DNA from: Chromera velia
Lineage: Eukaryota; Sar; Chromeraceae
Length of the DNA: 34,038 nt
Reading direction: 5' to 3'
Assembly (NCBI GenBank): GCA_018398765.1
Contig: JAHBMJ010000024.1
Span: 94,661-128,698, forward strand
Under the pieces are notes generated by a model, which did no database searches, was not told the DNA's origin, and was given only the letters and a program-made list of their open reading frames with translations. This document shows, piece after piece, positions 4,621 to 25,458 of the stretch. How positions within the stretch are numbered: position 1 is the first letter of the stretch; each line of letters opens with the position of its first letter. A program made the position numbers and the translations under genes.

Positions 4621-4642
4621 ACGCCTGCTGGCCGAGGGGCTA

Positions 4643-5031
4643 CCACCTGTTCAGAAATTATTTTTTTTCAGTCACCTTTTATTTTGAAAGTTGTTCAGAA
4701 AGGAGGCTATAAAAAAGTCAAATAGTCAGTTGTTGAATGCCGGGTCTACAAAATACAATTTGCTTAATATAAGGGCTGTGTAACTTTTGACTGACAAAAA
4801 ACCTAGGAAATAAAATTTTTTTTTTGGTTAAAAAAAGTTCATATTTTTTGAAAAACACAAATAAACATAGTGTCTTATGAACATATGAATGTACAATGAA
4901 TAGAATACTCAAGTAAGCACTCTATGTAAGTCTATAGATTTAGTATGTATTCATAATGTGTGAGCTTTGTATATGCTATGGTTCAAGAGTGATACTAGGT
5001 GAAAGTGTGAAAATAATTTCTGAACAGGTGG
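4643..5031. repeat. Left 389-bp terminal block of the mariner element
   Basis: Begins CCACCTGTTCAG and ends CTGAACAGGTGG, so the block itself looks like a small non-autonomous element. It is AT-rich, in contrast with the host DNA. It matches 7491-7879 at all but about seven of 389 positions, with no length change. The inner edge is followed by AGCACT, mirrored by AGTGCT before the right block, so the inner inverted match extends to 28 bp. No TA flanks the inner edge. Confidence 0.95.
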
Positions 5032-5253
5032 AGCACTCCATATTTTTGAATAGAATTTCGCTTTCCGGGGCCACATTTTTTATACTCAATTTTTGCATGT
5101 GACGCAACTGTGCAACTGAGTCATCTGCCTGTACAAAGGTTGTGTTTGGTACAGAGGTAGTGTTGTCTTCTTTCATGGAATGATGAACACACATAGAGAT
5201 GGAATGAGGAACACAAGCAAATCAAAGAAAAAGGAAGATTGACACAAAGGAGA

Positions 5254-6120
5254 ATGAGCGAAGCTGACTTGTATTGGTTTGAATTTCTCTCAAAACTTGG
5301 AGACCTGAGAGACTACATTGGCTATATTCTCTATTTCGATTGGTTATCAAGAATCCCTCCTGCACAGCAACGCTTGCAAGTTCAAAAGACTGCGGCTTTG
5401 CACAGTGCCGCTTGGTGTCGAGGAGGGCAAGAAGCAACCTTTCAGATTGTGGAAGTCCGACCGGTTGAGAAAGGTCCAAAAGGATTCTTTGGAGAGCTGC
5501 TTCTGTTTTTGGAAGTTGTAGGGAAAAAAGGATGGACGAGAGTGCGGGGGGTCTTTGTTGTTGAGATCTGGGTGTCTGAAGCAGCATTGAGGGAGCTTTT
5601 TGCTCTTTTGAAGTTAAAGGAGGCAGGCGGTCTCACGTGGGAGTGGGCTTCAGCTTTGACGAAAGACAGTGACTTTGTTCTGACATACAGGCACCTGAAT
5701 TCCTTGTGTTTTGTTTGTGGGAAACCCAAACATACAGCTGCATCCTGCGCTTTGAGGATTGCTTCCCCAGAGGCGTCTGGATTGACTCTTTTGCCTGAAG
5801 CCCCGCCTACGGCAAGTCAAGGTGCAGAGGTGTTCGATCCGTCTCGCATTGGTCTGTACTTCAACAAAGGGTCTGACAGGGTGAGCCCTCACTGGTGGTG
5901 GAAAGAAGCTCAGAGTGGAGCACGTGTCTCGTTCTTTTTCCACAGAGTAGGAGAGGGAAAGTTTGTGGTGTGGGTGACGTGTAATGGAAAAAGGAAGACG
6001 GAGTGCTGTTTTGAGGCAGAAAACGAGACGGTAGCCGCATTTGAAGTCCTTTCCTTTGCCCCTACTTATATTCACGCAATTTCTCTTCCTTCAAAGAGAA
6101 GTTACAAGCAGAACAGGTAA
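5254..6120 (+). CDS. Mariner-associated ORF1 protein with CCHC zinc knuckle, 288 aa
   Basis: ATG 5254 opens 288 codons. The first 150 residues are a mixed alpha/beta-like region (MSEADLYWFEFLSKLGDLRD; a run with WTRVRGVFVVEIWV). A canonical zinc knuckle follows: C152-x2-C155-x4-H160-x4-C165 (CFVCGKPKHTAASC). The rest is rich in Trp and Phe. Zinc knuckles bind single-stranded nucleic acid and are typical of retroelement Gag or ORF1 proteins. Tc1/mariner elements normally carry only a transposase, so this gene is the odd partner. The stop TAA (6118-6120) is four bases before the transposase ATG, suggesting one transcript with reinitiation, or splicing I cannot see. Possible roles (DNA binding, end pairing, chaperoning) are inference. 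Confidence 0.82.
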   Translation: MSEADLYWFEFLSKLGDLRDYIGYILYFDWLSRIPPAQQRLQVQKTAALHSAAWCRGGQEATFQIVEVRPVEKGPKGFFGELLLFLEVVGKKGWTRVRGVFVVEIWVSEAALRELFALLKLKEAGGLTWEWASALTKDSDFVLTYRHLNSLCFVCGKPKHTAASCALRIASPEASGLTLLPEAPPTASQGAEVFDPSRIGLYFNKGSDRVSPHWWWKEAQSGARVSFFFHRVGEGKFVVWVTCNGKRKTECCFEAENETVAAFEVLSFAPTYIHAISLPSKRSYKQNR

Positions 6121-6124
6121 AAGG

Positions 6125-7306
6125 ATGCCAGTGACCAAGCCCGTGGGGAGACCCAGGCGTTATACGGACAGGCAAGAACGCTCTATGGTGAACTTCTACA
6201 TCAAGGTGCGCAAGGAGAACAAGAAGGCTCCGACGATCGATCATTGGAAGCACAAACTGAAGAACAGGCGTTCACTGCTGCCACTACCGAAGTCAAAGGT
6301 CTGTCTGCATGAGTACGAGTATGAGTGACTGATTGAGATTGGCTTTGGTTTGTGAATGTTAGGGTTTTTTTGTGTGTGAGTATGAATTGTGGTGCAGTTT
6401 GCTGTGTTCAGCCGTCTCCGGCCGTCTCCAGCCGTCTCCAGCCGTCTACTTGCCTTTCTTCATTTGTTTTGATGTGTTGTCACATGTTTGTGCCTGTAGA
6501 ATACCTGGACCGGCATTTTGAAGCGCTGGTTGCCTGGGGGGAAGTGGTATAAGAAGATTCGAGGGGCAGTTGGAAACGATCAGGTTGAAACCAGGCGTTG
6601 GAAGGAAACAAAGAAACTGCAACGACGAGGAAAGAAGGAATGGAAGACCGATTTTCTTTTTTTAGACTTCAAGTACTACAAACCACGCTTGAGTCCGGAA
6701 CAAAAAGCTTATTCGCGTATGCTTGGGGGGGAGAAGGTGTTTTGCACGAGTGAGGAAAGACAAGAACCATGGGCAAGGGCAGGACATATGTCACGGAATA
6801 AGCCGGCAGGACCAGGGAACGCGTTTCAAATGGGAGTCGTAATTGGTTGTGGGCGTGTGATTGTTGCAGCAAAGCTACCAAATCCATACAATCGCTTTCA
6901 TGTGAGGGACTTTTTGCTGAATGATGTAGAGCCTGCACTTGTTGAACAAGGGTTTGGAAAAGAAACTGTTTTGCGTTGTGATCGAGATTCATGTTTAACT
7001 TCGAGGGTTGGGAAGGCTGCATTGAACAGTCTTTCTTGTTCTTTTGAATTTGCACAAGCTTCAATGCAAGACACATCACCGCTCGATTTTTCCTTCTGGT
7101 CAAAAGTGAAACGTGACATGTTGGAAGAAGAGGCGTCCGGGCCATTTTGGAAAGCGATTCAAAAAGAGAGTGAACACAACTGGACAGCGCGGTTGTTTCG
7201 TACCATTCGTACAGTTCCACGTGAGTTTATTGACAAGACAATTGCTTCAGTATACAACCGAATGAAGAACATCCGCCTTGCAAAAGGAAAGCATCCAAAA
7301 GAGTGA
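6125..7306 (+). CDS. Mariner-type DD34D transposase, 326 aa, one intron
   Basis: Cuts and pastes the element at TA sites. The model is exons 6125-6298 and 6500-7306. The N-terminus has the GRPR motif and a basic helix-turn-helix-like region (to about residue 75) that would bind the terminal repeats. The catalytic domain has Asp114 (FLFLDFKYY), Asp219 (VLRCDRDS) and Asp254 (TSPLDFSFWSKVKRD). There are exactly 34 residues between the second and third, and the last is Asp, as in mariner rather than Tc1 (Glu). The length is close to the usual 340-350 aa. The frame is intact to TGA 7304-7306, so the protein may be active. The intron is supported by the phase-0 join and by a TGA that would otherwise stop the frame at 6326-6328. 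Confidence 0.9.
6299..6499 (+). other. Predicted intron in the transposase gene, with a 10-bp minisatellite
   Basis: GTCTGT at 6299 and TGCCTGTAG ending 6499 bound a 201-base phase-0 intron. The reading is open on both sides and blocked inside. At 6411-6450 it carries four tandem 10-base units (GCCGTCTCCA type), just upstream of the T-rich tract. Confidence 0.75.
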
Positions 7307-7490
7307 CACAGTGACCGACTGTTAACCACTTTTTCCAAAATTTATATTTTTGTACCAAAATTATCAAAGACAATAGAATCTTTTTAGTTTTATATTTTTA
7401 AATTAAATTAAATTAGTATTCAATAGAAAGGATAACTATTAACATTGCGCACCAAATTTAGAAGTTATATGATTTTTTGAAAAAAGTGCT

Positions 7491-7879
7491 CCACCTGTTC
7501 AGAAATTATTTTTTTTCAGTCACCTTTTATTTTAAAAGTTGTTCAGAAAGGAGGCTGTAAAAAAGTTAAATAGTCAGTTGTTGAATGCCGGGTCTACAAA
7601 ATACAATTTGCTTAATATAAGGGCTGTGTAACTTTTGACTGACAAAAAGCCTAGGAAATAAAATTTTTTTTTTGGTTAAAAAAAGTTCATATTTTTTGAA
7701 AAACACAAATAAACATAGTGTCTTATGAACATATGAATGTACAATGAATAGAATACTCAAGTAAGCACTCTATGTAAGTCTATAGATTTAGTATGTATTC
7801 ATAAAGTGTGAGCTTTGTATATGCTATGATTCAAGAGTAATACTAGGTGAAAGTGTGAAAATAATTTCTGAACAGGTGG
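7491..7879. repeat. Right 389-bp terminal block of the mariner element
   Basis: Direct-orientation partner of 4643-5031, same length, with inverted repeats at both of its own edges (7491-7512 and 7858-7879). The outer edge abuts the TA duplication at 7880-7881; the inner edge is preceded by AGTGCT, not TA. Confidence 0.95.
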
Positions 7880-8245
7880 TAGACTTTCAGATCACAGGCA
7901 CGGCACAGGATCTTCCTGCCTGCTTGTTGGGTGCAACTGTGTGTGCTGCATGAAGGACGCCCCGGGGCTGGCCGTGGAGAAGGAGCACCACCTTCTGCTT
8001 CGTTTACAGGCGGACTCTTGCATGGGAGGAGGGAGAAGTCAGCGAGGCATTTCCATGCAGCCGCCACCTGAAGTCTCTGTCCGTTTTTATTCTGTTTGAG
8101 TCTCTGAGTATGGATTTCTAGACTTGTCTTGTTTGGAGTCGTTTTCCCGGAGGAGACGGGAGACGCCGGCGGGACCTCCCAAGGACCTCTCGTAGGAGAG
8201 GTCAGGCAGGCTGTTGGTCCGGAAAGGCAGGCCGGTCCTGTTGCC

Positions 8246-23957: not shown

Positions 23958-24150
23958 GTGAATGCGATTGCGGACCCTCCTGATGAAAAAGTCCAATTTC
24001 GCTCGTCGATCGTTTACCTCCCCTTCGTCCCCTGTGAATGCGGACCATCCTGTTGGAAAAGTCCAAAATCACACATCTTTCTTTCAACCTGTTTCTGGCT
24101 CTCTGAATGCGGACCGTCCAGTTGGAAGCGTCCAATTTCAGACTGCACTC
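23958..24150. repeat. Degenerate tandem repeat, about 3 x 70-76 bp
   Basis: Units begin near 23958, 24034 and 24103, each with GTGAATGCG...GACC...GTTGGAAAAGTCC-type sequence. The peptide is roughly N-A-D-x-P-V-G-x-V-Q. Unit 1 is in one frame, units 2 and 3 in the next, so one unit has gained or lost a base relative to the others. Confidence 0.8.
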
Positions 24151-25458
24151 CTTCCCCCCCCCACTCGCTTCCCCCAAAACTTGCCGATGCAACAGCCTCT
24201 GTCATCTTCTGGTCTGGCGCACGGCCCGACTGGCCTCTGTATCTCTGCATGGTGTGGCGGGGAATTTTTACGACACAAACAAAGAGATCTCCCAGGTGCT
24301 GATCTACGGACCTCACGAAGACCCAAACACTCCCAGGGCGGAGTGGCCGAAACGGAAGACCGTCGAACTTCCCAACTACCTGTGCCTCGTAGTGAATTGA
24401 GCCGCTTCAAGAAAGGCTCGACTCAGCTTCCCGCGACAAAGGAGGAGATAGACTCTGGGACGCACAGGGTGGCGGCCCTCAAGGAATGGCTGGTGAACAT
24501 CGTGGGAAACAAGGTCCTGGGAAGGAAGGTGAAGAAGGCGGAGGTACGTGCGGTGGTGGGAATGGGGTGGCGATGCACATGGAAGGAGCGGGACGACGGG
24601 TCAAGGAAGCCAAAGTGTCGCTTTTTCGCGAAGGGCTTTCTCGACGGTAGGTCCGTCGACACATATGTCGGTACCCCCTCGGTGGCGGGTATCAACTGTG
24701 TGGCTCTGTTCATTGTGTCGCAGGAGATGGAGATGGGGGCGGCAGACGTTACTGCTGCCTTCCTGACGTCGAAAGATCACAACCAGGAGAGGGTCGGTGC
24801 AACCCTCCCGAAGGTCCTTCCCGAGTACCCCAAGGAGTCCCCGTTTCCGGACGTCCCTCAGGAGAGGTACGAGGAGCTCGTAAAGGAAGCCCGCAAGTTT
24901 GAGGCGGGGGAGACGTATCTCATAGAGATGGGTCTCTATGGGCTGCCCTGTGCAGCGCAGCTCTTCGACGCCAAGTTGGAGGGGGTCTGCAAGAAATTGG
25001 GCTTTCGGTGTGTGGACACGGCGATCGCAGTGAGAGGGAAGAAGGGGGAGCCAGCCACAGCGGTCATCATGAACTGGATCGATGACTTGCTGACGGGAGC
25101 CAGCAAGGAGGAGCACGGGAAGCTTCAGGCCACCCTCAACAAGGAGTTGGGGTTTGGCTCGGTGTGCGTCATCGGGCAGGGCTCTGAGCGAAAGTTCTCT
25201 GGGGTCGACATAGAGAGGGTGGGACCGAGAGAAGTGATTCTCTCCCAGGCCTCTTACTTGGAAAATACCGACACCGCTCCCCTCTGGGAGATTTTGAAGG
25301 AACGGCGCCCCCAGAAGCCCTGGAGAGGTCTCGACGGGAAGTCGGCAGAGCCGTCAAAGGACGAGGAGGTGGATGAGGCCTACGAGAAGCCGTTGCCCTC
25401 ATCCATCCTCGCACTCTGCCCACCCTTCCAATCCCCTTGTCTTTCCTATAAATTCTGA
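23962..25458 (+). CDS. Ty1/copia-type reverse transcriptase, long open frame, 3'-truncated
   Basis: Copies element RNA into DNA. The conserved core (about 24440-25270) shows WRCTWKERDDGSRKPKCRFF-AKGF (the copia YKARLVAKGF region), ADVTAAFL with the first catalytic Asp (codon 24745, residue 262), YLIEMGLYGLPCAAQLFD (copia LxKSLYGLKQAPR region) and NWIDDLL with the Asp pair (codons 25081 and 25084), in place of the usual YVDD. All three catalytic Asp are present. The frame loses similarity near 25330-25400 and has no RNase H, so it is truncated; no integrase is seen upstream. A better frame may replace it briefly at 24230-24395 (NFYDTNKEISQVLIYGPHED), so the leader part is probably degraded. 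The first ATG (23962) is not necessarily the true start. Confidence 0.85.
   Translation: MRLRTLLMKKSNFARRSFTSPSSPVNADHPVGKVQNHTSFFQPVSGSLNADRPVGSVQFQTALLPPPTRFPQNLPMQQPLSSSGLAHGPTGLCISAWCGGEFLRHKQRDLPGADLRTSRRPKHSQGGVAETEDRRTSQLPVPRSELSRFKKGSTQLPATKEEIDSGTHRVAALKEWLVNIVGNKVLGRKVKKAEVRAVVGMGWRCTWKERDDGSRKPKCRFFAKGFLDGRSVDTYVGTPSVAGINCVALFIVSQEMEMGAADVTAAFLTSKDHNQERVGATLPKVLPEYPKESPFPDVPQERYEELVKEARKFEAGETYLIEMGLYGLPCAAQLFDAKLEGVCKKLGFRCVDTAIAVRGKKGEPATAVIMNWIDDLLTGASKEEHGKLQATLNKELGFGSVCVIGQGSERKFSGVDIERVGPREVILSQASYLENTDTAPLWEILKERRPQKPWRGLDGKSAEPSKDEEVDEAYEKPLPSSILALCPPFQSPCLSYKF

Follow-up and report, generated by a model that had tools for sequence, protein, structure and literature searches.

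A composite-like Tc1/mariner transposon of Chromera velia whose terminal direct repeats most likely behave as transposons of their own

Long terminal repeat (LTR) retrotransposons have direct terminal repeats that end in TG..CA and are alike within a copy, duplicate 4–6 bp of their target, and also occur as solo repeats and tandem multimers. In bacterial composite transposons, mobile modules that carry the transposase flank a core. Here we describe an element from a 34,038-nucleotide stretch of the Chromera velia genome (GenBank assembly GCA_018398765.1, contig JAHBMJ010000024.1, positions 94,661 to 128,698 of the forward strand; hereafter the window), in which an internal region (INT, or core) lies between two 389-bp direct repeats (blocks), each with terminal inverted repeats (TIRs) of its own. 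This feature of the repeats, the TA target-site duplication and the fact that no reverse transcriptase was recognised in the two conserved open reading frames (ORFs) of the INT set the element apart from LTR retrotransposons, and it differs from bacterial composite transposons in that the transposase is encoded in the core and not in the modules. We consider it likely that this is a composite-like Tc1/mariner transposon of the plan block-INT-block, in which each block is a two-ended substrate, the INT encodes a transposase and a partner protein with a CCHC knuckle, and the composite form is probably ancestral.

A similar plan is described for KolobokP by Kojima and Bao (2022, PMC9587614): an INT lies between long terminal direct repeats with short TIRs of their own, and the elements also occur as solo repeats, (repeat-INT)n-repeat multimers, abutted INTs and half elements. 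According to the same paper, the repeats have two preferred lengths, ~450 or ~660 bp, the ends read 5′-RR..YY-3′, the target-site duplication is 3–5 bp, and the elements, found in seven animal phyla, encode a DDD/E transposase and a second protein, a His-Me endonuclease; loss of a block is accompanied by loss of 1–5 flanking bases, and a homing endonuclease has been proposed to make the multimers (PMC9587614). The Chromera velia elements share with KolobokP the direct repeats with TIRs, the solo copies, multimers, abutted INTs and half elements, a constrained repeat length, and a transposase with a partner. They differ in their mariner-like DD34D transposase, TA duplication, CC..GG ends and repeats of mostly 375–390 bp, in the CCHC knuckle of the partner, in missing blocks that leave 3–4 nt of their own ends, whereas KolobokP loses flanking bases, and in the host, which 58 matches to PF00504 suggest is photosynthetic, whereas KolobokP comes from animals. 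By the tests made, the present elements work like KolobokP yet belong to Tc1/mariner; the fold comparison covered solved structures, among which mariner is the nearest. The presence of a KolobokP-like plan in Tc1/mariner is apparently a case of convergence.

Mos1, of the mariner clade of Tc1/mariner, resembles the present elements in predicted fold, DD34D triad, TA target, short TIRs and footprint size, and differs from them in having simple inverted ends instead of 389-bp direct repeats that are complete elements, in the absence of the extra ORF1, and in sequence, the present proteins being too distant to reach Pfam cut-offs. In the Sleeping Beauty 'sandwich' vector (Zayed et al. 2004, described in PMC4229213), a cargo sits between two short transposons, each complete, and a ~7.5-kb cargo was reportedly integrated 3.7 times better than with the first-generation vector (PMC4229213). 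There, as here, short transposons flank and help to move a cargo; the vector, however, is man-made, with units head to head and mutated inner ends, whereas the present arrangement is natural and direct, with intact inner ends. No Tc1/mariner element of this plan was found among the papers listed by the literature searches, which left Repbase reports and most subscription journals outside their scope; a Blepharisma paper on miniature inverted-repeat transposable elements (MITEs; PMC9942856) uses the phrase 'terminal direct repeats' once.

The block-INT-block plan in the window and in the genome

The window element spans 4641–7881, including a TA on both sides, and consists of a 389-bp left block (4643–5031, + strand), a 2459-bp INT (5032–7490, +) and a 389-bp right block (7491–7879, +). 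Aligned over their full length, as the preliminary description of this locus had proposed, the blocks differ by 7 substitutions in 389 positions and no gaps. Each starts with CCACCTGTTCAGAAATTATTTT and closes with the exact reverse complement of this sequence (22/22), which creates four intact TIR sites in alternating orientation: outer left (4643–4664, +), inner edge of the left block (5010–5031, −), inner edge of the right block (7491–7512, +) and outer right (7858–7879, −). The outermost ends are thus inverted repeats over 22/22 bp, as expected of a Tc1/mariner element. The TA copies can be read directly on the left (4641–4642, within CTA) and on the right (7880–7881, within TAG), but TA is lacking at the inner edges, GGTGG/AGCACT and AGTGCT/CCACC, and is therefore part of the target and not of the block. 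Every observed part of the layout given in the preliminary description, namely the TA duplications, the 22-bp inverted repeat, the 389-bp direct repeats and the four alternating sites, is present. The core itself ends in a 6-bp inverted repeat, AGCACT, for which inspection by eye of the other subfamilies described below yielded no match.

A search of the genome with the block gave 19 matches on 11 contigs. Solo blocks of the window type that retain both ends and a flanking TA are present at C3758, at C2710, at C525, which carries an insertion, and at C3267, which carries a small one. The window type includes a further composite, C3488, which shares both core-block junctions but has a core reduced by deletion to 373 + 207 bp; of its blocks, the left one is truncated and the right one has been rearranged near the start. 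C942 retains the right core-block junction. Searches with the ORF2 (transposase) and ORF1 proteins gave 10 matches at 8 loci and 10 matches, respectively, and self-comparison of the fetched loci revealed terminal direct repeats at C76, C202, C3681, C1542 and C1289. A block lies to the right of the transposase gene at 8/8 loci found and on both sides at 6/8. C3038 and C17 show the right-hand block only, and in both the left side is cut off: the gene match of C3038 lies 345 bases from the contig start, and in C17 a run of N extends to 8513, which leaves 305 bases between it and the match.

The genome holds five subfamilies, at separate loci, with terminal direct repeats, TIRs at each repeat and an outer TA. 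As the plan recurs at further loci, chance is excluded as the source of the window layout. The complete blocks read in the five subfamilies measure 375–390 bp. Exceptions are the left block of C1289 (349 bp), the C1572 block with its damaged ends (369 bp), the right block of C3488, which is rearranged, and C525 and C3267, the two solos that contain insertions. Within an element the two blocks are ~95–99.7% identical without gaps (88% for the C1289 pair, counting its deletion); between subfamilies their identity is 39–56%, which we take to be little more than chance for AT-rich DNA, a judgement made with no shuffled control. The TIRs share, by eye, the form CC...TGT...AATT, and are perfect over 15–22 bp in three of the five subfamilies and imperfect in the other two. 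Core length ranges from 564 to >3100 bp while block length is narrow, so it is the length of the block and not that of the core that is held. All genome counts are lower bounds: the block search of the C202 subfamily scored the best 40 of 47 candidates, and several C3681-type matches were left unopened, which makes the counts for that subfamily minima.

The blocks of the five subfamilies differ about as much as the cores do, and the composite is therefore probably the ancestral and maintained form of the lineage and was not assembled at the window locus. The preliminary description had instead suggested that two short elements captured a transposase core; for the window copy this is not supported, given the blocks that accompany the gene at all eight transposase loci. 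It had also foreseen that the block might never occur alone and that other copies might have ordinary inverted ends; on the contrary, TA-flanked solo blocks are present at several loci, and C3488 and four other subfamilies carry the composite plan.

Footprints, target sites and derivative forms

Missing blocks have left traces at three loci. At C3137, the sequence CCGG separates two adjoining cores (INT-CCGG-INT); C3054 lacks its right block and reads block-INT-CCGG-TA; and in C1289, two core-core junctions read GTT-CCG-AGT (INT-CCG-INT). A C202-type block begins with CCG and ends with CGG, and a C1289-type block begins with CCG and ends with TGG. Mariner-type cleavage leaves footprints of this kind, those of Mos1 and Sleeping Beauty being of comparable size. 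The three loci retain 3–4 bases of the missing block's ends, as mariner-type excision predicts, and we infer that CCGG arose from three-base 3′ overhangs of both ends paired over CG. Because recombination between blocks would leave one whole block, these junctions imply cuts at both edges of a block. They are the best evidence that a single block can be excised, even one that lies within a composite and is not flanked by TA at both edges.

Of the 32 insertions whose outer edges were both judged readable, 30 are flanked by TA on each side and 24 show CTA..TAG; the two that fail are C3488, with its truncated left end, and C2106. Left out of the 32 were C117, C3517, C540, C2023, C2227, C1688, C3332, C1359, C898, C942, half elements and block-block dimers. 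The C3955 composite lies inside a repeat, and its joined flanks match at least 42 sites elsewhere (best 40 of 153 candidates scored). The empty paralogous sites read GAATC-TA-GCTAC in 6/6 fetched, and the occupied site reads GAATCTA-composite-TAGTTAC, which shows that the C3955 composite duplicated TA exactly, at CTAG.

The elements occur as solo blocks, short-core composites, tandem arrays, core-core junctions and half elements. The 40 scored blocks of the C202 subfamily fall into 26 loci. Two or more blocks are found at 11 of these; only C202 has a full core, the others (C3444, C2323, C3847, C1536, C3137, C540, C2023, C3955, C264 and C56) having a short core of about core bases 1–81 + 1978–2463. 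Seven loci are solos, with TA on both sides in C838, C3630, C1559 and C651 and a damaged edge in C117, C2106 and C3517; seven have one block with part of the INT on one side, and one is a partial block beside N. In the C1289 subfamily, the six solos read (C3495, C3899, C3432, C3458, C3055 and C1942) have TA on both sides. C1289 itself is an array of three cores with a period of ~2507 bp and without whole blocks between them; ORF1 contains stops in 3/3 cores and ORF2 in one. In the C3681 subfamily, C785 (L074), C907 (L075) and C332 (L076) show a head-to-tail block-block junction, AACCGG/CGGTTG, with one C missing, which possibly represents a mobile block-block dimer; these junctions are near contig ends and were kept out of the evidence.

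Tandem blocks, spaced ~941 bp apart, number three at C2323 and four at C1536. A 564-bp core is identical (0 differences) in C3444, the first core of C2323 and the second core of C1536, with different outer flanks, which suggests a recent transfer between loci or an assembly effect. C2323 resembles a resident composite that received one C3444-type block+INT unit through a crossover close to base 200 of its left block. In C1536, C3444-type inner blocks lie between different outer blocks, and the two changeover points are at different places; as they do not coincide, a single crossover fails to explain this array. Alternatively, both mosaics could be cycles of the assembly graph through the identical unit in a short-read assembly.

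In 10 composites of the C202 subfamily, the left and right blocks of one element are on average 96.6% identical, compared with 93.3% (left–left), 93.9% (right–right) and 93.6% (left–right) between elements, and 0/20,000 random pairings reached the observed within-element mean. The underlying alignment of 37 blocks omits three partial blocks of the 40 matches (C2023 left, C898 and C2406). Single nearest neighbours give a weaker picture: the own right block is nearest for 6/10 left blocks, another right block ties to one decimal in C3137 and C264, and in C3444 and C202 the left block is nearer to another element. Position-wise inheritance, left with left and right with right, was not seen in these composites. 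The preliminary idea that one end was converted by the other survives to the extent that the ends of one copy are kept alike, which fits either conversion or unequal exchange.

Proteins encoded by the internal region

Full cores of this family contain two genes, both on the + strand in the window core. ORF1 (5254–6120, +; 288 amino acids from the ATG) has relatives in the four other subfamilies and a CCHC zinc knuckle at 5707–5748. The knuckle matches zf-CCHC_4 below threshold, and the ORF1 profile matches retroviral nucleocapsid knuckles weakly (best E 0.026). A His-Me finger nuclease was not recognised in ORF1, where the weak zinc knuckle alone was seen and whose predicted structure is poor (predicted local distance difference test, pLDDT, 40.6). 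No relatives were found in IMG/VR.

ORF2 (6125–7306, +) is predicted to encode a transposase of 326 amino acids in two exons, 6125–6298 and 6500–7306, separated by a probable GT..AG intron of 201 bp (6299–6499, +). The two parts are also separated by a gap in the C1289 copies and are contiguous in C76 and C202. A 10-bp tandem unit, GCCGTCTCC-like, is present in ~4 copies at 6401–6450, within the putative intron. The triad codons are at 6665–6667, 6980–6982 and 7085–7087, and the spacing between the second and third aspartates is 34 residues in the window, C202, C76 and C1289 transposases (DD34D, mariner clade). PF01498, the helix-turn-helix DNA-binding part, was matched below cut-off in 2/5 transposase members (best E 0.0075). 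The fold was predicted with AlphaFold2 for the intronless C202 relative, and not for the window ORF2, from 5 sequences (pLDDT 72.8; predicted template modelling score, pTM, 0.62). In Foldseek, this model best matched Sleeping Beauty and Mos1 (E 1.9e-7 to Sleeping Beauty). VIA-align gave Z 15.7 with the Mos1 catalytic domain (root-mean-square deviation 3.1, 184 residues aligned) and 15.4 with Sleeping Beauty; Mos1, SETMAR and Sleeping Beauty domains together span Z 14.7–15.7, with retroviral integrases, the next family among the matches listed, at ≤9.5. Considering (i) the Z-scores of the predicted fold, (ii) the DD34D triad and (iii) the TA target, we take ORF2 as a mariner-type Tc1/mariner transposase. 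Elsewhere in the window, positions 23962–25458 contain a 498-amino-acid ORF that, judged by eye, resembles a fragment of a copia-type reverse transcriptase.

Proposed movement of the blocks, alternatives and implications

Combining these observations, we propose that the transposase, whose cutting role is suggested by its fold, triad and the footprints, cuts at block edges and inserts at TA, mostly CTAG. Any left edge could be used with any downstream right edge, and what moves could be one block, the entire composite or a longer array; all three are seen as products. Excision of one block would leave 3–4 nt and give rise to the INT-INT or half elements whose junctions are found at three loci. 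Recombination between the direct repeats would add or remove INT copies, make some of the solos and keep paired blocks alike. Most likely each block acts as an independent transposon; the earlier suggestion that either block could move alone and seed non-autonomous copies is probable in light of the TA-flanked solos and the footprints.

Several points weigh against this interpretation. Movement is deduced from its products. The footprint record is thin, with 4 junctions at 3 loci, and the pair at C1289 probably traces back to one event, copied inside the array. Cores with one block, which the preliminary description had proposed to look for, do exist in the C202 subfamily, but among the seven loci only C3054 has a footprint; C3512, C444, C1572 and C2406 have a truncated core and no footprint, C3315 ends 181 bases past the block, near a contig end, and C2920 was read to 12050. 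Solos may come from recombination instead of transposition. The window INT was found once at full length in the genome. The assignment of the family leans on a moderate model, the triad and the TA target; all Pfam and NCBIfam models fall below cut-off for ORF2, and sequence searches of the PDB gave no match. The fragmented assembly means that arrays and mosaics may in part be misassembled. At L078, a seventh and more distant paralog of the C3955 site (86%), there is a 4-bp gap at the junction and many other gaps, such that the absence of the composite is shown there and the exact target is not.

The blocks might be inert direct repeats of which solos arise solely by recombination, as solo LTRs do, only the whole composite being transposed. 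Direct repeats recombine readily, solos would keep TA on both sides either way, the C117 and C838 solos are within 2–3% of a composite's block, and most one-block loci have truncated cores and no footprint. This explanation is nevertheless improbable, since CCGG or CCG exactly at the positions of missing blocks (C3137, C3054 and C1289) needs cuts at both edges of one block, and all four TIRs of the window copy are intact. Copying through RNA with ends regenerated at each insertion, as in LTR elements, would agree with blocks that on average pair by element and not by position and with a gag-like CCHC knuckle in ORF1. It is hardly credible, however, given the TA duplication at the C3955 empty sites, block ends of CC..GG instead of TG..CA, the probable intron kept in genomic copies, and the mariner-like fold and footprints; a scan of the two conserved INT ORFs found no match to reverse transcriptase at E up to 1. 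We therefore rejected an LTR retrotransposon identity.

That two MITEs captured a core in a single event, or that the window locus is misassembled, would be in keeping with the single full-length copy of the window core and with the existence of solo copies of its block. The same plan at C3488 and in four other subfamilies makes this very improbable; a one-off capture is refuted for the family, while a local misassembly could still affect the window copy. A more tentative and rather unlikely extension is that this Tc1/mariner lineage has independently evolved an LTR-like plan and spreads both by cut-and-paste of any pair of edges and by the integration, through homology, of excised block+INT circles at blocks already in place, which would build the arrays. 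C2323 has the look of such an event, with the join near base 200 of its left block, and the proposal is analogous to the integration of a circle into a resident copy proposed for IS26-type translocatable units. For the C1536 array, however, one crossover at one position does not account for the structure.

A composite-like transposon with individually mobile blocks would parallel, in nature, the engineered Sleeping Beauty sandwich vector, and repeat finders may annotate it as an LTR element or list its parts as separate MITEs. Arrays exist here without a recognised homing endonuclease in the element, and the occurrence of the plan in Tc1/mariner may separate it from the homing endonuclease proposed for KolobokP multimers. 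The plan would also offer a concrete way for a family of MITEs to remain linked to its autonomous partner. The same plan and a narrow repeat length in a second superfamily suggest that this is a repeatable solution and not an accident.

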